Both the position numbers and the translations under genes were made by a program. Positions 7,589 to 24,902 of a DNA stretch of 27,582 nucleotides are shown here, piece after piece (the first letter of the stretch is position 1; each line of letters begins with the position of its first letter). Below the pieces are notes generated by a model that saw only the letters and a list, made by a program, of their open reading frames with translations, was not told where the DNA came from and made no database searches. Origin of the DNA: a virus; the IMG/VR virus record IMGVR_UViG_3300009183_000305, positions 1 through 27,582 of that record. One strand, given 5' to 3'.

Positions 7589-10500
7589 ATGGAATCTCCT
7601 ACAACGCTTAAAGCCCAGTCTACTGATGGGGCTTATCCGATTGAACCATTTGCTTACAAGTTGCCCGATGGCTCTCCAGCCGGGGCAATGTACTCCGATG
7701 CTCAGTTCCAGCCCGGAACTCCTGAGTACACGCTGCGTAGCAATGATCAGTTTAAAGCCGTAAATAGCAGGCTATTTGAATCGTTTGCTGACCTTGAACG
7801 GCCAAGCAGCGTAAGTGGTACTGGGGATGCCTATGGCGGTGGAGGCAATACTTCTTCCCCTCAGTTAGTAAACTTCTATCAAAATATTCGTGGCGCTCTT
7901 CCTGAGGGTGCAAATTCGACTCAAGACGCGGCTTGGTATGTTCTTAATACATTGCGTCCGCAGGTTAAGCACGATGCCAAATATGTGTTTGGCAAAATCC
8001 GTCCTATCATCGAAGCCAAGATGGCTGAAGCCGAAAAGAACAATAGTATGTTCTACCCGGGAGATATGACTACGGAGGACATTATCGGCCTATCTAAACA
8101 GGCTGGCGTTGATCCGTGGGTTGTTGCCCGTATGGTTGGCGAGGAAGGTGAACAGAGTGTTCGTAAGGCTACCAAGACCTATACGATGGGTCTTCTTCGT
8201 CCAATGGTTGATATGCTAGATGTCAATTCTCAGTATGGTCAGCAGGTCTATAATGATCCGCTAAAAGAACTTGGAACGCTTACTGGTCAACCTCGCCGAG
8301 ATGCATTTCTTGCTGCCGTTCGATGGAAAGAAAAGCACGGAAAATCATTCCTAGGTGGTCTTGCTGAAGGCATTGGGACTCTTGTTCTAGATGCTGGATA
8401 TGCTGTTGGAGGCTTTGTTGAAGGAGGCGTTGGTACAATTGTAGCAGCCGGGTCTGGTGGCACTGTTATGATGGAGAATGGTCGTACTGTTTTATCTGAT
8501 GATTGGCTTGCAAAACCCAAGGAATACCACGATGAGGCTAACTCCGTTCTCCAGCGCGCCCACGAACTAGCAAGCAAATACGGCCCTGAACTTGCAGCCG
8601 CAAATGGCGATGATGAAAAATTTGCTGCCATTATTAACGGACGCTTTGGTGAATATGCAGATCCTGACGATCTTCGTACATTCCGAAGGCTCTCAGAATT
8701 AAAGGCTGCTGGCGCTTTCCGTCCTCAAGTAAGGGCCGAGCGTCTGGCTAATTTTGGTGAAGGCGTTCTTAACGCTGCTCCGAATATGGTTAAGTTGTTT
8801 AACCAATCTGTAGACCCTCACGCCTTTATGTTTAAGACAGAGGCAATGTTTAAGGGATTGGCTGGAGACCCGGTCGATGCTACGATTGAATGGCTTAGGG
8901 GAACTAAGGCATATCAGACAATGGAGACGGCAACATTGGATAAGCAAATCGATTTGTATTTGGAAAATGTTCGTGATGCCAAGGGTGACGGTGAATCTAT
9001 TGTTGGTATGTTCTACCGCCACGGCGCTCAAATGACAGAGGCTTTAGGAGGGAATCCTGTTATAGACCCATTTGCAAAAAGTCTTGGACTTGGAAGCGCT
9101 TCTGAAATCTTCAGAGCAGGTGAGAAAGCGGCCAAGGGACAGTTGCAGGAAACTGAATTGATTCAGGCTGCTGCGCTTGCTGACCCTGTTACAGTAATCA
9201 TTGGATCAATGAAGTTGCTTGGTGTTGGCGCTAAGGCTGCTGCTGCACAGAAAGCAATTGCTAGTGTCCGTGCTGGCCTTCAAGAAGTAACAGCCGAGGC
9301 TGTTTCTATTCGTGCTGGTGCGAATACAACAAGCAAAGCATTTGACACTGCAATTGCAGAACTTCGTACCAAACTTGAGGCTGCATTACCCGGCGCTAAG
9401 TTTACTGATGACGATATCATCGGTTTAGCAATCGGTGATCGAAAGTCCATTATCGGACAGTCCGCTTCCGCTCAGGTAGTTCGTAAGGAAATTGGAGGTA
9501 CTATTGCCAAGAACAAGGGATTGGCAGAGCGAGTTGGAAAACTAACTAAGCAGTTGGACGAACTTCCTGATGACATCGCTGGAATTGAAAAACTACGCGC
9601 TCGTCCAGTTGGTGGATCCGTTGTAAAGGGTGCTGGTTATGCTGCTCAAGGCGTATCTGTCCCATTCAATGCTGTCGCTGATTTCCTAGATGTTGAACGA
9701 AGCACTGCAAAGGGTTACACATTCCGTAGATTGCTTGGATTGGCTTCTCGTAAAGTTTTAACTGGGCCTGTTATTGGAACCGCTACTAGCGCTGCATTTA
9801 TTGGTGCTGCACTTGTATCCGGAGAAATTGCTACAGCCTCATTGGCTGCACTTAGTACAGGCTTAGGAACATCTAGTGTTGGCCTGCTGCTTAGACCTGA
9901 TACTCTTCGCCTAATTGGTGGTAAGATTGCTCAGGCTGGACGGCTCAATAAAGCCATTGGTGCAAATGTAGCAAAGGGACAACAGTATGGAGAATCTACA
10001 TTCCTTCGCAGTGCGATGGATATGGAGGTTGAGGCAAAGAAACTATTTGAAACAGTACCGCAGTTGCCGGGTGTTGTTCGTACCGCAGAACAGGAGGCGG
10101 CTTTGGCTAAGGCTGCTATGTTAGCAGAAGACGCTCAGGCTCTTCGCCGTCTACATAAAGCCGGAATAGAGGAATCAATGATGACGGCATCGCGTGTTAT
10201 TTGGGAAGACGGTCTTATCGCTGGTGGAACTGGCGCTCTTATCGCTGGCCTTAATGATAGTGATGCCTATGGCGCTGGCGCTGGTATGGGCATTGGAGCA
10301 TCGTCTATCCTTACATCATTAAATCGTCTTTACAAGGTAACGCCTAAGGGTGCAGATCCTTATCACGCCCGTGTAATCCTAGGAGATGTTGTAACGATTG
10401 CACAGCAAATCAAAGACCCATTGCAGCGTTCAAATATGCTGGCGTTCCTTGGTGATGCTGGCGCTGGTTCTGCAGACTATATTCGCCGTGCTGGAATTGT

Positions 10501-13500
10501 TCGTGATTTATATATGTCTACCCGTGGACAGATCAAATTCCATCGAGGCACTGAATTTGAAGCAGCAACAATTCTTTCTTCGTCTCCAGAAGCAGAAGCC
10601 AATATGGTTGCTTCAGAGGCTGCCGGGATTCACCCCGGAGATCCTGTAAAGGCTAGGGCTTATGCCGAACAGCGTTTGGCTGCACTAAAGGCATCCCGTG
10701 AGGCCAAGGATAGGGCTACTCACCTAAAGACAAAAGTAGAAGAGAATAAGGCAAACATCGATAACCTTAATCGTTCGATGACTGCTTTGGATTCAGAAAT
10801 CGCTAAACAGCAGGCTATCGTTGACGATGAAAAAGTTAACTTTACTGACATCAAGAAGGCTGATGCAAACAAGATTAAACTTGATAAATTGCTACAGCAG
10901 AAATCGGAACTTAAGGCAAACCTTGAGGTAGCAGGCAATCAGACTACAGTCCTTGAAGGTGACCACGCTGCTGCACTTGGAGAATCTAAAGTCGATGTTC
11001 CGTTCCGACCTTACGAGTCTCGACTTATGCCTGATGGCTCCACGGCTCGTTCTGTTGCTAGTGGTTTCTATATTGTAGATGGGCCTCAAGGAAAAAGCGT
11101 AGTAGTTAATATTGATACGATTGATAATATTGCTGCAGTCTCTGAAGGTATGCACGCGCTCCTTTCAGATCACGCTGCTGAAAGCCTGATGCCTGATATG
11201 GTAAAGATGCTTCTTGATGCCAATAAGGGAGAGCCGGGAACACGGGGAGTTCCTGCTCAGGTAACTGAATCTATTCTTCAGGCTTACGGAGATTCGCTTA
11301 CACCAGCACAGCGAGCAAGGTTTATGGCAGAAGGAAAGAATGGTTTGGATCTGTATTATAAATCTGGAGGCAAAGACATCTCTGCCGTTGTTGATCCTCT
11401 CCGTGAGGCTATGACTTGGATGCTTGCTGCCGTAGACCTTAATAAGCGTCCGGGCTATCGTCCGGGTCTCGCTACGGTTCCGGGCCGGATGGCTCCTACT
11501 ACTGGTTTTGCTATGGGTGAAACTGGAGGAGGATGGGATGCTGTCCGCAAAACATTGTTTGGTGAACGCACATTGTCTGACAGCGTTAACACGGCGCTTA
11601 AGAATATGTTTGACCCTGTGTATGGTCAGTTCACACGAAGAAACGCAGCAAGCATCGTAGGACAACTTGAGGCTTCTGGAATGCGATTTGTTGAATCCGG
11701 AGACGGTACTCTTCGTGGTTACTTCCTTAACGAAAACAATGAGATTGTTCGTTCTGCAGTTCTGGACGCATTCTATGAAAAACTAATCGTCAAGACTGGC
11801 GGCCAAGGCTCAAGCAGAATCCGTCCTATCAATCTGTATGATCCTATGATTCCTGTTGAGCAGCGAATCGACTTCATTAAGCGCAATGGTATGGACTGGG
11901 TTCTAGACGAAAAGGGAAACATTATGTCCCCGGAAGCCGTTGGTGCTAAGTCTGACGGATTTGTTCGTTCTATTGAAGATGGCTTGAATGCTATCCCTGA
12001 GTCTGATCGCGGTATGCAGGTTTATACTGATGAACGCGGAGGAACTATTCGTACTGGAGTTCCGTCTCAAATCGAGATTGCCGCTATCGCAAACAATCCA
12101 AATGTACCGCAATCTTATAAGGATAATATCCTTAAGATTATGAAGACTATCGGATCCGGTGAAGTTAAATCCGTCCTTACTGCCGAATATAGTAATATCT
12201 TTTCAGTAAATACTGAGGCGCTTACTGCCCACCGATTGCGTATTGGTAAGGACATTGCTGGAAAAACTGAGACACGCAATATCATCCCACTTGCATTCAC
12301 GATGGGTGAGGCTCCAATCTACGGTGCAGATGGAAAGAAATTGAGGGTAATGGATCCTGCTAGCGGAAAAATGGTAGATGCCACGCAGCGCGTTGTGCGG
12401 GTTCGTGCGTTTGATAGTCAGGCATTCCAGCGTTCCGTTAACCAGTCTTTCTCTGGTGGCCTATATGTTCTTGATGAAGCCGGGAAACGCTCATTCTTAA
12501 AAGACCCAGAGGGTAAGGAATACACTGCAACATATCTTCGTTCTCTCTTTGGCACAGATGCCGACTTCCATAACGCTGCTGCCTTGTGGATGAAGAACTA
12601 CCATCGCTATGGCGCGCTTGATCCAACGGCTCCTATTCCAATGAAAGATGGTGTTCCGCGTGAGAATAATCCTATCTCCGCAGAACTTCTAGACCCTATC
12701 AATCCTATCAGGGGTGCTGCTATGCGTGATGCACTCCGTGTTATCTTCCAACTTGAGTCCGGCAAGAAGCGTCTTGGATGGGTTGAAGACAATCGTCAGA
12801 CAAATACTGCTAACGGTTTTGCCATTCGTGGCACTAATTTCCCCATCTCTGATTTCCGTTTAGATCAGTTTGGCCCACTTAAGGAGAACGGACAGTCTAT
12901 GCCTATTGACCTTACTGGCACTACTAGTGCTATGTTTGCAATGGGCGTTAAGGGCTGGGGCAGCCACAAGCCGCAGATTATCAATGGTGTCCCCGGTATG
13001 GTTGTTAAGACTGTCTTTGAGGCTGGCACTGATAAGTTTCTCCAAGGCAACGATATCAATGTGACTGAGGTTCGCGTTCACCCTTCTCTACCTGATGTAA
13101 AGGTGTTTATGGGATACGAAGTAAAAGCAGGCACTAAACAGAAAATTAGTACAATTGCTTACACAGTTGGAGATGGAAAGATCATCAACTCCAACTCTAG
13201 CGATATGCGGTTAGTGATGCAGGAGATTAAAAAGAAGGTATATGGTCGTGAGGATGCTAACTACATCGATTCTATTTTGAATCAGTGGCGCTATGACTCG
13301 CAGAAGCCTTTGCCGGGTACTCTGGCAGTACCCGCTAAAGCAACTGGCCCGACAAATGTTAATGTCGTTCCTAAGTCTGGCGCTGATATGATTGATACAT
13401 TGAATGGTCTTTATGCTGCCAATGCTGGCGGCAAGGACATCCCTCCGTCTCTTCGTAAGTACTTGAACGAACAGAATGTAGAAGCGGACATCGCTAACGG

Positions 13501-15646
13501 AAAGTCGTTGTTTATGATTCTGAACGACCTTAAAACTAATCTAAAGGGCGAGATGGATCGTACAAGTTCCCGGTACTCAACTACAGAGAAGGATCGCCTT
13601 CGTGGTATTATTGACCACCTTGACACTGCCACCTCTCTTGTTGGCGCTAGCAGCAGAAAGTACCGGGCAGCCTACGAAGTACCTACGAGGGATCTTAAAA
13701 CTGACACAATCCGAACTGTGTTTGAACTTGGTAGTCCTACCAATGGGAACGGTGGATGGTCGGCTGACGGTCTTATCGCCAACGAATTATTCAGGGTCAG
13801 CAAGGAATTTCCGTCTGACCAATTCAAGAACAATAAGGAATACCTTGAGGCAGTTGTCGCAAAGTTAGACGAAGAGATGTTCAACGCAGCAGATCTTGAG
13901 GGCGAGCCTTTCAGAAAAGAAATGGATAGGCTAAAGCCTGCAAAGGAAAAGGCCGAGCGGGCGCTTGAGCAACTGAAGAAGAACTCTCCTGAACTCTGGG
14001 AGGCTGCTCCTGCTGATACTAAAGCATCAATCACAAATATTAATGATATTATCGCTAATGGAGGCGGTAAGGCAGAAGTGTCTATTGGTGGGAAGAATAT
14101 TCCGTTTGATAAATTCGGTGTAAGTATTGATGGAGACATTGCAACTGTTGCTTATGTCGAACTTCAAGACAAGACACAGACACAGAAAGGAATTGGCAAG
14201 CAGGCTTACATTGCGCTTGGAACGGAATTGGCTAATAACGGAATCACGCTTTCATCTAGCGGATCACTCTTAGGTGAAGGAAATAAATTGTGGCTTAGTT
14301 TAGTGCGTGATGGATATGCCGTCCGCGTTGGCAAGGACTATCGTTTTACAACAAAGAATACTACTGCCGCTGCTCCGGAAACGGCTACTGCTCAGGGTCG
14401 TGATATCACTCCTCGCGCTGGTGGCCCGGGCGATGAGACTACTGGACGCACACCTGCTATTAGTCCGAAAGAGCAGGCTAGCCAGTTCACGGAAGGTACT
14501 GGCCGTGATGCTCCGTATATGACACCTGAGGAAATCGCTCGCACTGCGGAGTTCCGTGTCGGCCCTGACGGCAAGATTACCCGTATCACTGAGCCAGAGA
14601 AGACTGAGCGTCAACGCTGGCAGGAACGCTACAAGGCTATCCTTAACAAGCAAAAGGAAGAAGCCGCACAGGCCAAAGACACGCTGAATGAAAACGAGAA
14701 GAAGCGCCGGGCTATGGTGAACCAAGTCCGCGATAGGGCTGCTGCTGAGATTGATGCTATCGAGAAGCGGGCTGCCTATTGGCGTAGCGAAGCCCAGAAG
14801 CAGGCTCAGGCTGATGCCAAGGCTGCTAAGGCGGCCCAAAAGGAGGCTGATCAACTTCAGGCTCAGGCTGATGCCCGCCGGATCGCCTTTGAGCGCGGCA
14901 TTGGTGATGCCCGAGCAACGGCTGATGCGAAGAACGCCCAGACGAATAAACTCCTAGAAATTGCCCTGTCCTCTAATCAGCCGCTTATCGCTCCCGGCCT
15001 GCTGCTTGTCGATGCGAACCGTCTCACGGTGCAGCCTTTCCGTATGGCAGTTCCTACGGATACGGCCGTCACTCCATCTGCAACTACCCGTACTGGTATC
15101 CTATACCTACGGAATGTCTCTGGATTTGAAAGCAATGTACAGGCTAGCCAGCAGGCATTCTTTAACTATCTGTACGGTGAACAGATTGGTCGCGGTAAGG
15201 CTATTGCCGGGGAAGCCTTCCGAGGCCCGATGGCTGCCCAGCAGGGTATCAATCTTGTCAACAGCCGTATGTGGGTAGCCGAGAAGTCGGGAGGCCGACT
15301 GCTCCGTGAATATCGAAATGCTGATAAGGCTGCTGGTCGTGACATCGTTACCTATAAGGTGTACGGCGCTAACGGTATGCTCATCAAGCAGAGCAACGAT
15401 GCGGCTGATGCTATCGAGGCTATGGAAAATCTTGAACGCCGATTTATGAATACCGTGGGTATCGGCGTTCTTAAACCTGATTCTACCGAAGCGGCTGGTC
15501 TTGCCCTCGATGCCTATAATGTTAAAAAGCCAGCCACGGCTCGTCCTAAGTCTAGAGTTCAGACTGAAGAAGAAAACATTATGCGGATCCAGAATATGGA
15601 ACAGTACCGTGGAGTCCAGCCTTCCGGGCCTCAACCACTCCGATGA
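7589..15646 (+). CDS. Giant internal virion / ejection protein, gp16-like position (2685 aa)
   Basis: This one gene takes 29% of the window and encodes about twice the length of T7 gp16 (1318 aa). It starts three bases after the gp15-like stop. Visible blocks are: helical N-terminus; glycine-rich hydrophobic segments near residues 254-294, 725-768 (GPVIGTATSAAFIGAALVSG) and 874-908, able to cross or enter a membrane; a long coiled coil near 1036-1129; an alpha/beta segment near 2161-2254 resembling a GNAT acetyltransferase (QKGIGKQAYIALG as the acetyl-CoA-loop-like motif); and a second, strongly charged coiled coil near 2339-2463. No lytic-transglycosylase motif (Glu in an ES context followed by GxxQ) was found, unlike T7 gp16. 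Likely the large component of the DNA ejection machine. The antisense frames across it are shadows. Confidence 0.6.
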   Translation: MESPTTLKAQSTDGAYPIEPFAYKLPDGSPAGAMYSDAQFQPGTPEYTLRSNDQFKAVNSRLFESFADLERPSSVSGTGDAYGGGGNTSSPQLVNFYQNIRGALPEGANSTQDAAWYVLNTLRPQVKHDAKYVFGKIRPIIEAKMAEAEKNNSMFYPGDMTTEDIIGLSKQAGVDPWVVARMVGEEGEQSVRKATKTYTMGLLRPMVDMLDVNSQYGQQVYNDPLKELGTLTGQPRRDAFLAAVRWKEKHGKSFLGGLAEGIGTLVLDAGYAVGGFVEGGVGTIVAAGSGGTVMMENGRTVLSDDWLAKPKEYHDEANSVLQRAHELASKYGPELAAANGDDEKFAAIINGRFGEYADPDDLRTFRRLSELKAAGAFRPQVRAERLANFGEGVLNAAPNMVKLFNQSVDPHAFMFKTEAMFKGLAGDPVDATIEWLRGTKAYQTMETATLDKQIDLYLENVRDAKGDGESIVGMFYRHGAQMTEALGGNPVIDPFAKSLGLGSASEIFRAGEKAAKGQLQETELIQAAALADPVTVIIGSMKLLGVGAKAAAAQKAIASVRAGLQEVTAEAVSIRAGANTTSKAFDTAIAELRTKLEAALPGAKFTDDDIIGLAIGDRKSIIGQSASAQVVRKEIGGTIAKNKGLAERVGKLTKQLDELPDDIAGIEKLRARPVGGSVVKGAGYAAQGVSVPFNAVADFLDVERSTAKGYTFRRLLGLASRKVLTGPVIGTATSAAFIGAALVSGEIATASLAALSTGLGTSSVGLLLRPDTLRLIGGKIAQAGRLNKAIGANVAKGQQYGESTFLRSAMDMEVEAKKLFETVPQLPGVVRTAEQEAALAKAAMLAEDAQALRRLHKAGIEESMMTASRVIWEDGLIAGGTGALIAGLNDSDAYGAGAGMGIGASSILTSLNRLYKVTPKGADPYHARVILGDVVTIAQQIKDPLQRSNMLAFLGDAGAGSADYIRRAGIVRDLYMSTRGQIKFHRGTEFEAATILSSSPEAEANMVASEAAGIHPGDPVKARAYAEQRLAALKASREAKDRATHLKTKVEENKANIDNLNRSMTALDSEIAKQQAIVDDEKVNFTDIKKADANKIKLDKLLQQKSELKANLEVAGNQTTVLEGDHAAALGESKVDVPFRPYESRLMPDGSTARSVASGFYIVDGPQGKSVVVNIDTIDNIAAVSEGMHALLSDHAAESLMPDMVKMLLDANKGEPGTRGVPAQVTESILQAYGDSLTPAQRARFMAEGKNGLDLYYKSGGKDISAVVDPLREAMTWMLAAVDLNKRPGYRPGLATVPGRMAPTTGFAMGETGGGWDAVRKTLFGERTLSDSVNTALKNMFDPVYGQFTRRNAASIVGQLEASGMRFVESGDGTLRGYFLNENNEIVRSAVLDAFYEKLIVKTGGQGSSRIRPINLYDPMIPVEQRIDFIKRNGMDWVLDEKGNIMSPEAVGAKSDGFVRSIEDGLNAIPESDRGMQVYTDERGGTIRTGVPSQIEIAAIANNPNVPQSYKDNILKIMKTIGSGEVKSVLTAEYSNIFSVNTEALTAHRLRIGKDIAGKTETRNIIPLAFTMGEAPIYGADGKKLRVMDPASGKMVDATQRVVRVRAFDSQAFQRSVNQSFSGGLYVLDEAGKRSFLKDPEGKEYTATYLRSLFGTDADFHNAAALWMKNYHRYGALDPTAPIPMKDGVPRENNPISAELLDPINPIRGAAMRDALRVIFQLESGKKRLGWVEDNRQTNTANGFAIRGTNFPISDFRLDQFGPLKENGQSMPIDLTGTTSAMFAMGVKGWGSHKPQIINGVPGMVVKTVFEAGTDKFLQGNDINVTEVRVHPSLPDVKVFMGYEVKAGTKQKISTIAYTVGDGKIINSNSSDMRLVMQEIKKKVYGREDANYIDSILNQWRYDSQKPLPGTLAVPAKATGPTNVNVVPKSGADMIDTLNGLYAANAGGKDIPPSLRKYLNEQNVEADIANGKSLFMILNDLKTNLKGEMDRTSSRYSTTEKDRLRGIIDHLDTATSLVGASSRKYRAAYEVPTRDLKTDTIRTVFELGSPTNGNGGWSADGLIANELFRVSKEFPSDQFKNNKEYLEAVVAKLDEEMFNAADLEGEPFRKEMDRLKPAKEKAERALEQLKKNSPELWEAAPADTKASITNINDIIANGGGKAEVSIGGKNIPFDKFGVSIDGDIATVAYVELQDKTQTQKGIGKQAYIALGTELANNGITLSSSGSLLGEGNKLWLSLVRDGYAVRVGKDYRFTTKNTTAAAPETATAQGRDITPRAGGPGDETTGRTPAISPKEQASQFTEGTGRDAPYMTPEEIARTAEFRVGPDGKITRITEPEKTERQRWQERYKAILNKQKEEAAQAKDTLNENEKKRRAMVNQVRDRAAAEIDAIEKRAAYWRSEAQKQAQADAKAAKAAQKEADQLQAQADARRIAFERGIGDARATADAKNAQTNKLLEIALSSNQPLIAPGLLLVDANRLTVQPFRMAVPTDTAVTPSATTRTGILYLRNVSGFESNVQASQQAFFNYLYGEQIGRGKAIAGEAFRGPMAAQQGINLVNSRMWVAEKSGGRLLREYRNADKAAGRDIVTYKVYGANGMLIKQSNDAADAIEAMENLERRFMNTVGIGVLKPDSTEAAGLALDAYNVKKPATARPKSRVQTEEENIMRIQNMEQYRGVQPSGPQPLR

Positions 15647-21867: not shown

Positions 21868-22104
21868 TAAGTTTTTCTCTTGGGCGATAAAAGAATCTAG
21901 CAACCGCGTCCGGGCAATGTTGATGTGCTTACAGCGCCGGGCTGCCCCCTCGCTTTTAGCCAGCCTGTAAACCCAATGGCTGCAGGTGCAGGAGTCATCG
22001 GCGAGATTAACGGCATAGCCATCCTTATCCGACTCCACCTTCCAGCGGAGGGGGAACGGCCGGAGATCCAGACCCTTAACCCTGTACTGCGGTGCTGAAC
22101 TCAC
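21859..22104 (-). CDS. Small SWIM zinc-finger protein (81 aa, GTG start)
   Basis: The GTG at 22104 (MSSAPQYRVKGLDL) gives a 29-base overlap with the helicase-loader gene. Starts further upstream would run deep inside that gene in another frame. After a beta-like stretch (RWKVESDKDGYAVNLADDS) the protein shows CTCSHWVYRLAK, then CKHI at about residues 60-63: Cys-x-Cys, a spacer of about 17, Cys-x-His, the spacing of the SWIM zinc finger. SWIM domains bind DNA or proteins and occur in Rad51 paralogue-associated factors and transposase-related proteins. In this position a DNA-binding role with the replication or recombination proteins is plausible. Confidence 0.6.
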   Translation of the reverse strand: MSSAPQYRVKGLDLRPFPLRWKVESDKDGYAVNLADDSCTCSHWVYRLAKSEGAARRCKHINIARTRLLDSFIAQEKNLLT

Positions 22105-22765
22105 GGATGCGCCGGACGAATGCTTGCCCGGTTTCTTGGTTGTTAAATCTCTCAAGGAGGGTAGTCCCATTATAATTCGTGGTGATAATTGTAGCCCGCA
22201 GGTGCTGGCTGCGTTCATCGATGATGCCGAACAAGTCGGTCTCCATCCGGGCAGTCAGGCGTTCCTTGCCTAGGTCATCCAGAACAAGGAGCGGGACTGT
22301 GCAAAAGTAATCAAGTACCTGCCCGTGCTTGTGGTCATCAAAGCCCTTCTCAATTGCCATCTCTAGTTTCCGCATCGGAAGCCACACGGCCTTGTCGGGG
22401 AACTGCCTTGCCCAGATTCGATTGAAGATCAGCCAAGCAGTCCGGCTCTTGCCTGCGCCTGTCGTGCCGTGCAGAAGCAAGAAGGGCTTCTCGGACGGCT
22501 CCCAGTTGGTGGCCGTGCGGAGTCCTCCACCTAGCCTGCTGATGTCCGTGTCGAAGAACCCGCTTGGATAATCGGGATGCCGCTCTGCCCATACCAGACC
22601 CATCTTCTCCAAGACCTTTGGGATGTCAAACGGATGCTCCCAGTGGCTGGTCTTCCCAATCTCGGCACAGACCTTGCAGGTATAGAAGTTGCGATAAGTT
22701 CCACGCGCTGGGTTAAAGGCTGGGACGATTTGCCCTCCGCAGCCAAGGCACTTCCCCTTGCTCAT
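22076..22765 (-). CDS. DnaC/IstB-like AAA+ helicase loader (229 aa)
   Basis: An N-terminal four-Cys zinc finger (C6, C9, C30, C33) is followed by an AAA+ ATPase core: Walker A GTTGAGKS at 100-107, Walker B LLVLDDLG with Asp163/Asp164, a sensor-1 strand ATIITTNYN near 190-197, and an arginine region close to the C-terminus. This is the layout of bacterial DnaC and phage helicase loaders, which place the replicative helicase at an origin. The upstream initiator-like gene and the iterons support that role. The start overlaps the preceding stop (ATGA). The replicative helicase is not in the window and may be the host's. Confidence 0.75.
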   Translation of the reverse strand: MSKGKCLGCGGQIVPAFNPARGTYRNFYTCKVCAEIGKTSHWEHPFDIPKVLEKMGLVWAERHPDYPSGFFDTDISRLGGGLRTATNWEPSEKPFLLLHGTTGAGKSRTAWLIFNRIWARQFPDKAVWLPMRKLEMAIEKGFDDHKHGQVLDYFCTVPLLVLDDLGKERLTARMETDLFGIIDERSQHLRATIITTNYNGTTLLERFNNQETGQAFVRRIREFSTAVQG

Positions 22766-22986
22766 CGCTTCAACTCCTTCTCGTATTCCTTCCAGCCTTC
22801 AAAAGTGTACACCCGGATGAAGCAATAGATCATCGCATCGTCCCACTTGAGTATGACAAAGCAGTCCATCCCCTCGATATTAATCTTGCCGTGGCCGGGC
22901 ATCACAAAGTTCTCGACCATATTGACGAACTCATTGTCTGCCCAAGCATCAAAGCCAAGGCGCTGGATGTCTTCTTTAGAAACCAT
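22762..22986 (-). CDS. Small unrecognised protein between initiator and helicase loader (74 aa)
   Basis: The ATG at 22986 lies inside the 3' end of the initiator-like gene (11-base overlap), and the stop overlaps the helicase loader start. The product begins MVSKEDIQRLGFDAWADNEF and contains beta-like strands with aromatic residues (CFVILKWDDAMIYCFIRVYT), then a basic end. No family is recognised. The translational coupling on both sides suggests it acts with the replication proteins, which is inference. Confidence 0.5.
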   Translation of the reverse strand: MVSKEDIQRLGFDAWADNEFVNMVENFVMPGHGKINIEGMDCFVILKWDDAMIYCFIRVYTFEGWKEYEKELKR

Positions 22987-23635
22987 TAGCGTGATCCTTC
23001 GGAGTTAGGATTTTGCGAAAAGGTTTACTATTACCTGCCTTCTCGGGGAACAGTCCCTGCCAGTCGTTAGCGATAGATCGATTGATACAGGCCACGGCCT
23101 CATCCTCGGTCAGCCCCAAGAGTATGGCAAGTTGCTTTTCCTGTGCGAAAGCAGAAAGACGCTTCTTGGTCTTAGTCCGGTAATTGACCCATTCGCCCCA
23201 AGCCCTTTTAAAATTCTCACCGTGAGGAAGGGGTAGGGGTTCTGTATCTATCTCATTGTTATTCTCTTTTCTACTCTTGGACGCCAACTTGGCGTGAGGG
23301 TCACGACAGACTGGCGTGAGGGGGGTGACAGATTGGCGTGAGGGGGTGGAGGCCGAGTAAGACCCAATAGTCTGCACCCGGCGCTGGTTACCTGCCGCCT
23401 CGTTGATCACCTTGATGACCAGACCTACCTCCTCCAGCCGGGCAAGGTATCGCTGCACTGCCCTCTCGCTGACGCTCAGGCGGCCCGCAAGCCAGTCGTT
23501 GGACGCCCAGCACCCTTTACCCCCATCAAGCACCTCCAGCAGACCGTAGAGGCATTTCTCCTCTAGGCTGATGTCGGTGCGTGAAAGTACTGCCCCCGGA
23601 ATCCAGAGGCCAAACCCTTCCTTAGGCTCGCTCAC
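22976..23635 (-). CDS. Winged-helix replication initiator-like protein (219 aa, GTG start)
   Basis: The GTG at 23635 overlaps the exonuclease stop (GTGA). Residues about 40-80 form a winged helix: WLAGRLSVSERAVQRYLARL followed by EEVGLVIKV, the typical recognition helix and wing start. The middle (about 91-125) is a polar linker with many Ser, Pro and Thr, and the C-terminal region (about 135-219) is helical (RAWGEWVNYRTKTKKRLSAF; EDEAVACINRSIANDWQGLF). Such two-domain proteins are the phage analogues of lambda O or DnaD. The linker-coding DNA contains three 22-bp direct repeats, as in lambda, and the helicase loader follows downstream. Replication initiation is the best reading. Confidence 0.65.
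   Translation of the reverse strand: MSEPKEGFGLWIPGAVLSRTDISLEEKCLYGLLEVLDGGKGCWASNDWLAGRLSVSERAVQRYLARLEEVGLVIKVINEAAGNQRRVQTIGSYSASTPSRQSVTPLTPVCRDPHAKLASKSRKENNNEIDTEPLPLPHGENFKRAWGEWVNYRTKTKKRLSAFAQEKQLAILLGLTEDEAVACINRSIANDWQGLFPEKAGNSKPFRKILTPKDHANGF
23281..23354. repeat. Three 22-bp iterons plus one inverted core, probable replication origin
   Basis: The 12-base core (T/C)TGGCGTGAGGG starts at 23289, 23311 and 23333, an exact 22-base period; the first two units also share GACAGA at their ends. A seven-base inverted copy, ACGCCAA (23281-23287), sits one base before the first core, giving ACGCCAACTTGGCGT. Because 22 is not a multiple of three, the repeats fall in different reading frames and cannot be a by-product of a protein repeat. 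AT-rich DNA follows on the + strand's left side (about 23238-23278), where unwinding could start. Location inside the linker of the initiator-like gene parallels the lambda origin in gene O. Confidence 0.7.
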
Positions 23636-24441
23636 GACAGGTTATCCCCGAGGGTTAGGGTCAGCGGATTACCGAAGTTAAAGCCCGGAAACACGCCAGA
23701 CTCCTGACACTCGTTGTAGATCCGATAATACTCGTCCAAGCGATGCTCGGCGTGGGCAAGCCAGCCTTCATCAAGGGTGATCTTGGCGCAGTCGTGAGCC
23801 TTGGTCTCGCTTTCCACAAAGTACAGAGCCATCTCATCCGGACTGCGGTTCTCGATGATCTGGAGACAGCGGCGGTAATGCACCAACTGGATGTCATAAC
23901 CCCGGTCACGCACATCCCAAAACAGAGTCTTCTTGGTCAGCGGCTTGCCATATGATTTGACATCTCCGATAATGATCTGGCCGTTCTTAGGGTTAGCCAA
24001 GATATCGATGCGCGCCTTCATCGGGAAACCATACTTAGGGTGCTTGCAGAACAGCGATACCTCGGTATCAATGCCCTCAGTGGACATTAGGTCAGCGAAG
24101 TGTCGATTGGCCTTGAGAGCAGCGGCGGTGGCCTTGCCGTTCTCCATCGCAGACGGAGACAGCAGTACACCCTCAGGGTTCTCGGCGCGCCAAGCGTCAC
24201 GGGCTTTCTTGCTGCCTTCACCAGTGGTGGGCATACAGGCGAAGTCCTTGAGACTGTCGGGGTCGATGGTCAGAGCGTGGATGTAAGATCCAAGATCTGT
24301 GGCTGCGGAGGACTCGAAATCGTCATTGGCCGCATAGAGCGGGCTGATGGCGAACTTCTTCAAAAACGAGGCGTTGGCCCCGGGACGGGAGCGGTAGTCC
24401 TTTGCAGGAAGACCGCTGATGATGGCGTTATTATTGCTCAT
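23632..24441 (-). CDS. PD-(D/E)XK exonuclease, recombination type (269 aa)
   Basis: The ATG at 24441 is preceded by ACGCATCCT, matching other starts; a GTG 10 codons earlier is less likely. The nuclease core is visible: Glu127 in DTEVSLF, KARIDIL with Asp146, GDVKS with Asp160 and Lys162, and QLVHY (Gln185, Tyr189). This Asp, Asp-x-Lys, Gln-x-x-x-Tyr series is typical of RecE/exonuclease-VIII-like PDDEXK phage nucleases that resect one DNA strand. The helical N-terminus (KKFAISPLYAANDDFESSAA, TDLGSYIHALTIDP) also fits. Resection would feed the Rad52-like annealing protein. The stop overlaps the initiator gene's start. Confidence 0.75.
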   Translation of the reverse strand: MSNNNAIISGLPAKDYRSRPGANASFLKKFAISPLYAANDDFESSAATDLGSYIHALTIDPDSLKDFACMPTTGEGSKKARDAWRAENPEGVLLSPSAMENGKATAAALKANRHFADLMSTEGIDTEVSLFCKHPKYGFPMKARIDILANPKNGQIIIGDVKSYGKPLTKKTLFWDVRDRGYDIQLVHYRRCLQIIENRSPDEMALYFVESETKAHDCAKITLDEGWLAHAEHRLDEYYRIYNECQESGVFPGFNFGNPLTLTLGDNLS

Positions 24442-24458
24442 AGGATGCGTAGTGCGAG

Positions 24459-24902
24459 TTAGGTATCCCACTCCTTGTGGGTGATGTCAATAGTAACCAT
24501 CTCAGTATCTGAATAATATTTTGCAAGGGTAAGCCGGGAGATCAGACCATCATCTTTCAACACCCCAGCATCAACCATACAGTCCAGCACTCCCTTGACT
24601 AGATTGTCAAGATCAGGGCGGGTAGCCTTTTCCACAAACTGCAACTTCTCCCGGTCAGACACGCGCTTAGAGTCCTTGGTATGTGAGTAATAAAAGTTGA
24701 CCCGGACATAACAGCCACTCTCGATGGTCTTGTGATCCTGCTTGGCAACCTCGGCCTTTAGCAGCAGGGTGGCGGCCTTGCCCCATTTAGCGGCCTTGGA
24801 ACTAGCCATCTTGCCAACAAACTGGCGGCCGTCACGGGTTTTTAGGATACGCAGCGCCGCTTGGTGCGTGGGAGGAGGCGGTAGGTGTAAGATGAATTCC
24901 AT
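24459..24902 (-). CDS. RusA-type Holliday-junction resolvase (147 aa)
   Basis: The product begins MEFILHLPPPPTHQAALR and has the RusA signature RPDLDN (residues 95-100), then a helix LVKGVLDCMVDAGVLKDD that carries the catalytic-type acidic residues Asp111, Asp117 and Asp118, then a beta-hairpin with KYYSDTEMVTI. Lengths and order match the RusA family, which cuts four-way DNA junctions. It is the first gene of the leftward operon, so it is probably the most strongly expressed from the divergent promoter region. The start ATG follows GGCGGAT with no Shine-Dalgarno sequence. Confidence 0.85.
   Translation of the reverse strand: MEFILHLPPPPTHQAALRILKTRDGRQFVGKMASSKAAKWGKAATLLLKAEVAKQDHKTIESGCYVRVNFYYSHTKDSKRVSDREKLQFVEKATRPDLDNLVKGVLDCMVDAGVLKDDGLISRLTLAKYYSDTEMVTIDITHKEWDT

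Follow-up and report, generated by a model that had tools for sequence, protein, structure and literature searches.

The window analyzed here, meaning the whole stretch of DNA under study, comprises 27,582 bases and corresponds to a virus record in IMG/VR, a 27.6 kb fragment of a phage that has been seen solely in environmental DNA. The genes surrounding the locus of interest are as follows:

22076-22765, minus strand: DnaC-like helicase loader (phrog_50, E 2e-23; Pfam IstB_IS21, 27.7 bits)
22762-22986, minus strand: small open reading frame of 74 aa between initiator and loader (open reading frame list)
22976-23635, minus strand: replication initiator gene, 219 aa (HTH_36, PF13730; phrog_678 'replication initiation O-like')
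23632-24471, minus strand: exonuclease VIII-like gene, the upstream neighbour of the initiator (phrog_412, E 6e-33)

The initiator matches Pfam HTH_36 with 32.4 bits (cut-off 25) over residues 21-73, and phrog_678 with an E-value of 4e-17. No Pfam match up to E 0.1 was obtained to either the lambda O family (PF04492) or the RepA_N family (PF06970), and BLASTP similarity to lambda O was not significant. Gene order runs from the initiator through the 74-aa reading frame to the DnaC-like helicase loader, and a RusA gene accompanies the exonuclease VIII-like gene on the upstream side. The loader likewise follows the initiator in loci L004, L012, L019, L020, L055, and L069, and the exonuclease VIII-like neighbour is also found beside the initiator in L019, L036, and L069. 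Cumulative GC skew was discarded as evidence of an origin; it is uninformative because the coding strand changes near 17.1 kb. A single 2685-aa open reading frame occupies 7589-15646, in what is presumed to be the structural half of the record.

Anatomy of the repeat array

On the plus strand, TTGGCGTGAGGG occurs at 23289 and 23333 and CTGGCGTGAGGG at 23311, i.e. at an exact spacing of 22 bases, and these share an 11-base core, TGGCGTGAGGG, found without mismatch at 23290, 23312, and 23334. Of 17 arrays that Tandem Repeats Finder reported in the window, this one (23289-23346) scored highest, at 81. The longest identical run across three equally spaced copies was 11 bases, compared with a maximum of 8 in 2000 synonymous shuffles that kept the initiator protein; with none of the shuffles (0/2000) reaching 11, the three repeats of exact 22-base period at 23289, 23311, and 23333 reported in a preliminary description of this DNA are confirmed. 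The exact core has no further copy in the whole record, and candidates for independent extra sites were rejected, given that only singletons with one mismatch or weaker, at chance level, were found elsewhere.

In gene orientation, the consensus of the relatives defines a full unit of 22 bp, CCCTCACGCCAA-NN-TGTCGTGA, which is larger than the 12-base core. The units and the adjoining stretch, numbered in the direction of the gene, are:

23323-23344, minus strand: putative iteron unit 1, CCCTCACGCCAATCTGTCACCC (repeat search and alignment of relatives)
23301-23322, minus strand: putative iteron unit 2, CCCTCACGCCAGTCTGTCGTGA (repeat search and alignment of relatives)
23279-23300, minus strand: putative iteron unit 3, CCCTCACGCCAAGTTGGCGTCC (repeat search and alignment of relatives)
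23237-23278, minus strand: AT-rich, purine-rich stretch (AAGAGTAGAAAAGAGAATAACAATGAGATAGATACAGAA), probable unwinding element (composition, stability, and conservation)

The right arm of unit 1 is degenerate in the record and reads TCGTGA or ACGTGA in most relatives. Unit 2 forms an imperfect 19-bp inverted repeat (TCACGCCAGTCTGTCGTGA, 23301-23319), the right arm of which, TGTCGTGA, is identical in 15/15 aligned sequences. Unit 3 contains an inverted repeat with perfect arms, ACGCCAA-g-TTGGCGT, at 23281-23295; the inverted ACGCCAA that the preliminary description had singled out at 23281 is thus present, but as the right arm of this unit rather than as a separate element. The TTGGCGT arm is peculiar to the record (relatives have TTGACGT, TTGTCAC, or CTGTCGT there), and the 19-bp inverted repeat is, after unit 2, clearest in unit 3 of the record (ACGCCAAGTTGGCGT) and in L018 (TCACGACAAGTTGTCGTGA). 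Dyad symmetry of the group consensus is significant (p 0.0065), units 2 and 3 showing the dyad and unit 1 of the record lacking it. In the wider family, clear dyad symmetry was detected in only 7/45 cases at p<0.05 and is not general; a family-wide dyad rule is therefore not supported, and we claim the symmetry for the group of this record and a few others only.

Conservation of the array in close relatives

Close relatives in IMG/VR comprised sixteen sequences at 74-89% protein identity, plus L020 at 51%. Synonymous variation, assessed codon by codon against codon-usage expectation in 14 relatives, was 0.074 across the iterons and AT-rich stretch compared with 0.568 in the remainder of the gene; it was 0.103 for the iterons alone, and 0.014 for the AT-rich stretch compared with 0.515 in the remaining gene. 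Windows of 10 codons across both features ranged from 0.00 to 0.20, and the two features together form the lowest window of such length in the gene, with 0/20000 random column sets as low. Amino-acid difference over the same region was higher than elsewhere in the gene (0.26 vs 0.17). Because synonymous variation is low where residues vary, it is the DNA, and not the protein, that is under conservation, as the preliminary description had proposed to check by aligning relatives. The three units furthermore lie in three reading frames with their core unchanged, so protein constraint cannot be the cause. A protein repeat or low-complexity coding region, for which one could cite the disordered linker encoded by this segment, is contradicted by these frames and by codons frozen while residues vary; such an origin of the repeats, already dismissed in the preliminary description, can hardly be entertained.

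Repeat loss in relatives that retain the linker, which had been named as a possible objection, is mild: in L017 and L019, whose initiator sequences are identical, unit 1 has decayed but the other two are intact, and each of the three cores of L018 carries one mismatch, the 22-bp phase being preserved in every case.

DNA-level conservation might also reflect a conserved RNA element in the initiator mRNA, acting as a hairpin or in processing or translation control, and the nearly invariant unit 2 is indeed able to form a hairpin. However, in none of the 15 predicted pairs have both partners changed in a compensating way (covariation term -0.11), sequence differences in the right arm of units 1 and 3 are not mirrored in the left arm, and the link to the recognition helix described below would go unexplained. 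We consider this explanation very unlikely.

A second, smaller synonymous dip (0.16-0.19) is located at 23006-23047, close to where the initiator gene ends, over codons for NSKPFRKIL. Its AT-rich sequence, AATAGTAAA(C/T)CTTTT...AAAAT(C/T), is retained in the 51%-identical L020 and could represent a second DNA or RNA element.

The AT-rich stretch and the domains of the initiator

The 36-nt core of the AT-rich stretch is 69% AT, its duplex ranks among the weakest 0.4% of all 36-mers of the record, and its purine asymmetry is in the top 0.08%. On the basis of composition, stability, and conservation, the stretch is probably the unwinding element. In the wider family, a 36-nt stretch beginning <=60 nt after the repeats and ranking in the top 5% AT of its own gene was found in 43/45 cases. 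Internal repeats of ~12 bp are common in the AT-rich stretches just past the iterons in L020, L053, L117, and L145 (ACAGAGGATAAC, TGAACCAGTCAT); these recall tandem elements of other unwinding regions, and could also represent four-residue protein repeats.

Two domains flank the segment of the initiator that is encoded by the repeats:

23369-23605, minus strand: N-terminal winged-helix DNA-binding domain, aa 11-89 (AlphaFold2 helix/strand pattern)
23069-23218, minus strand: C-terminal helical domain, aa 140-189 (AlphaFold2 helices 140-156, 162-172, and 177-189)

The AlphaFold2 model of the whole initiator is modest (mean pLDDT 65). In the winged-helix domain, whose recognition helix lies around SERAVQRYLAR, most values are 77-87 as far as residue 70 and about 60 after it. 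In the PDB, the best-scoring structures are 4pql (Z 10.6) and 4pt7 (Z 10.4), which bear the titles 'DNA binding protein' and 'initiator', with other winged-helix-turn-helix (wHTH) proteins within 1 Z of them; 4pta was also matched, and all three are winged-helix domains of initiators, from RepA_N proteins. The model is disordered over residues 92-132, for which the repeats and the AT-rich stretch code. The C-terminal domain likely contacts the helicase or its loader. In phiES15, an O-like protein with Phage_rep_O as its N-terminal domain has a C-terminal part that is 34% identical to it. Placement of the repeats between a winged helix and a C-terminal domain, beside an AT-rich stretch and upstream of a loader gene, as first described, is thus upheld by Pfam and phrog matches together with the AlphaFold2 model.

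Recurrence in the wider HTH_36 family

The layout, in the order wHTH, repeats, AT-rich stretch, C-terminal domain, and loader, recurs in relatives with other repeat sequences. L020, L036, L038, and L053, which form a group at 51% identity, carry 23-bp units of different sequence in the same place, and L055 and L069 have yet other unit sequences. In the group of L020 (group B), the lowest synonymous windows (0.116 from aa 104) cover the final portion of the repeats and the AT-rich stretch; its preset region overall is modestly low (0.226; 42/20000 random sets as low). The lowest synonymous window of the Cruim01 group (0.055, at aa 88) coincides with its repeats.

In cultivated phages whose initiators belong to HTH_36, the layout is the same and repeat periods are 22-24; in-gene repeats were found in Pseudomonas phages HU1 and Cruim01, Flavonifractor phage Cormatin, Lactobacillus phage PMBT4, Oceanospirillum phage GJ44, Butyrivibrio phage Ceridwen, Leuconostoc phage LLC-1, and Lysinibacillus phage LspM-01. 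Significant repeats of period 19-25 were detected in 56/66 deduplicated related initiator genes compared with 0/252 other open reading frames of the same loci, in a sample (relatives of Pseudomonas phage Cruim01 and Leuconostoc phage LLC-1, and prokaryote-genome loci) that is dominated by Cruim01 relatives and includes one subfamily whose period of 21 could partly reflect protein repeats. Genes in which the repeat test failed were kept in the counts, among them ten loci of the survey and, outside it, genes such as L071, L076, L078, L080, L085, and L086. In L085 (Leptospira phage LE1), where the in-gene repeat was not significant, the HTH protein matching the initiator of the record lies between ParA-like and ParB-like genes.

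The same C-terminal domain also occurs on unrelated N-terminal domains (L158, 1105-1890, with DUF1376; L161, 1126-1929; L164, 1063-1845). Iteron-type repeats were not significant in these three genes, and AGAGAAG runs precede the C-terminal domain.

Linkage between repeat sequence and recognition helix

Across loci, the repeat sequence tracks the N-terminal domain and not the C-terminal domain (partial rank correlation 0.38 vs 0.02, from locus pairs that are non-independent, as in all helix-repeat comparisons here). Many initiators have C-terminal domains more than 55% identical joined to unrelated winged helices, and their repeats are then unrelated; where winged helices are alike and C-terminal domains unrelated, the repeats stay alike. 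Within the scaffold PSYQHIADQCEI, the helix RSTVR occurs with repeat TGTAGGCCCAAACAGCAC, RSTVK with TGGGGCAGGAG, and KRSVM with GTAGTGCAGCAGCTGCACC. Units of the same helix type have a similarity of 14.7-18.8. Between RSTVR and the other two types it is 5.5 and 5.9, the background being about 5.4; between KRSVM and RSTVK there is partial likeness (10.6). RSTVR and KRSVM scaffolds are 83% identical, yet their repeats are at background similarity. These sequence comparisons are most simply read as binding of the repeats by the recognition helix, although hitchhiking could account for part of the linkage, given that the repeats are physically close to the DNA encoding the wHTH.

Specific reading of the repeats by the wHTH would fit equally well if the units were operators through which the initiator represses or times transcription of its own and the loader gene, replication starting elsewhere, and plasmid initiators often autoregulate. 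The units lie, however, about 300 bp inside the gene, a consensus scan of 22900-23700 found no promoter-like site, and operators would leave unexplained why the AT-rich stretch downstream of the units is conserved. We regard operators in place of an origin as unlikely, and an operator role may coexist with origin function. The finding that alike C-terminal domains carry different wHTH and repeat cassettes could also point to a recombination hotspot or packaging signal serving exchange of the initiator module; a generic site of this kind would be expected to be identical across cassettes, whereas the repeats differ between them, making this a highly improbable explanation. Initiator-binding iterons plus an unwinding element are the best reading of the sequence data.

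On balance, we favour the more general proposal that HTH_36 phage initiators carry the origin in their own linker DNA, and that helix and iteron co-evolve and move as an exchangeable wHTH-plus-origin cassette. If true, origins, and the code by which helices read iterons, would be predictable for many uncultivated phages and prophages, and the link would offer a route to predicting origins from sequence and to grouping phages by replication compatibility. In the open-licence literature we found no description of a link between recognition helix and iteron across the HTH_36 family and little on HTH_36 phage origins with iterons, an absence that is no proof of novelty.

Proposed origin and comparison with known systems

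The ~110 bp at 23237-23347 very probably constitute a lambda-type phage replication origin inside the initiator gene, working as follows: (i) the winged-helix domain, probably as a dimer, would bind each 22-bp unit, a length of about two helical turns that places neighbouring units on one face of the double helix; (ii) the resulting complex would strain and open the AT-rich stretch adjoining unit 3; and (iii) the C-terminal domain would help bring in the host replicative helicase via the DnaC-like loader encoded downstream. Since the protein segment encoded by the putative origin is a disordered linker, the DNA is free for selection as a binding site.

In the lambda origin, iterons that are 19-bp imperfect inverted repeats lie in the middle of gene O with an AT-rich region adjoining, and the smallest fragment that suffices for unwinding holds two iterons plus this region (PMC7466680). 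The preliminary description had likened the present locus to lambda with another initiator family, and the architecture does match: iterons in mid-initiator gene just past the DNA-binding domain, 19-bp inverted-repeat units, an AT-rich, purine-rich stretch on the downstream side, which in lambda too is A-rich and purine-rich on the same strand, a helicase loader gene next, and a protein in which a linker separates N-terminal DNA binding from a C-terminal domain (P-binding in lambda). The systems differ in that lambda has four units at 20-24 bp, of other sequence, rather than three at exactly 22 bp, a P-like rather than DnaC-like loader, and a Phage_rep_O (PF04492) rather than HTH_36 winged-helix initiator.

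Origins inside initiator genes are thus already known, from lambda and from RepA_N plasmids such as pSK41. In pSK41 Rep, an N-terminal winged helix binds repeats central in its own gene, and the origin-encoded linker is dispensable as protein (PMC5703833). The present initiator likewise has in-gene repeats and an N-terminal winged helix, possibly of similar fold, whereas the pSK41 C-terminal domain contacts primase and the neighbouring gene here is a helicase loader. The chimeric Rep of pPR9 combines an HTH_36 N-terminal domain with a pSK41-type C-terminal domain, its DNA-binding domain having been exchanged in nature together with the origin, and the mini-replicon works (PMC5703833); it has a wHTH of PF13730 as here but belongs to a staphylococcal plasmid, and the comparison with it covered the protein family. 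For Francisella phage KIRK, a lambda-like origin with four iterons inside an AT-rich region has been predicted from one genome (PMC7924643). It lies in a replication gene with Phg_2220_C, the C-terminal family that is paired with HTH_36 in phage Ceridwen.

For the single record, an in-gene origin is expected biology, and its value lies in providing a concrete predicted origin for a group of uncultivated phages; of greater interest is the general pattern, in which the lambda design of an origin inside the initiator gene would recur in a different initiator family and in phages of many hosts.

The same iterons, with an 80%-identical initiator, are present in L087 (contig JAURFH010000162.1, 9.5 kb), which is binned in a Verrucomicrobiota metagenome-assembled genome and provides a weak hint of the host.
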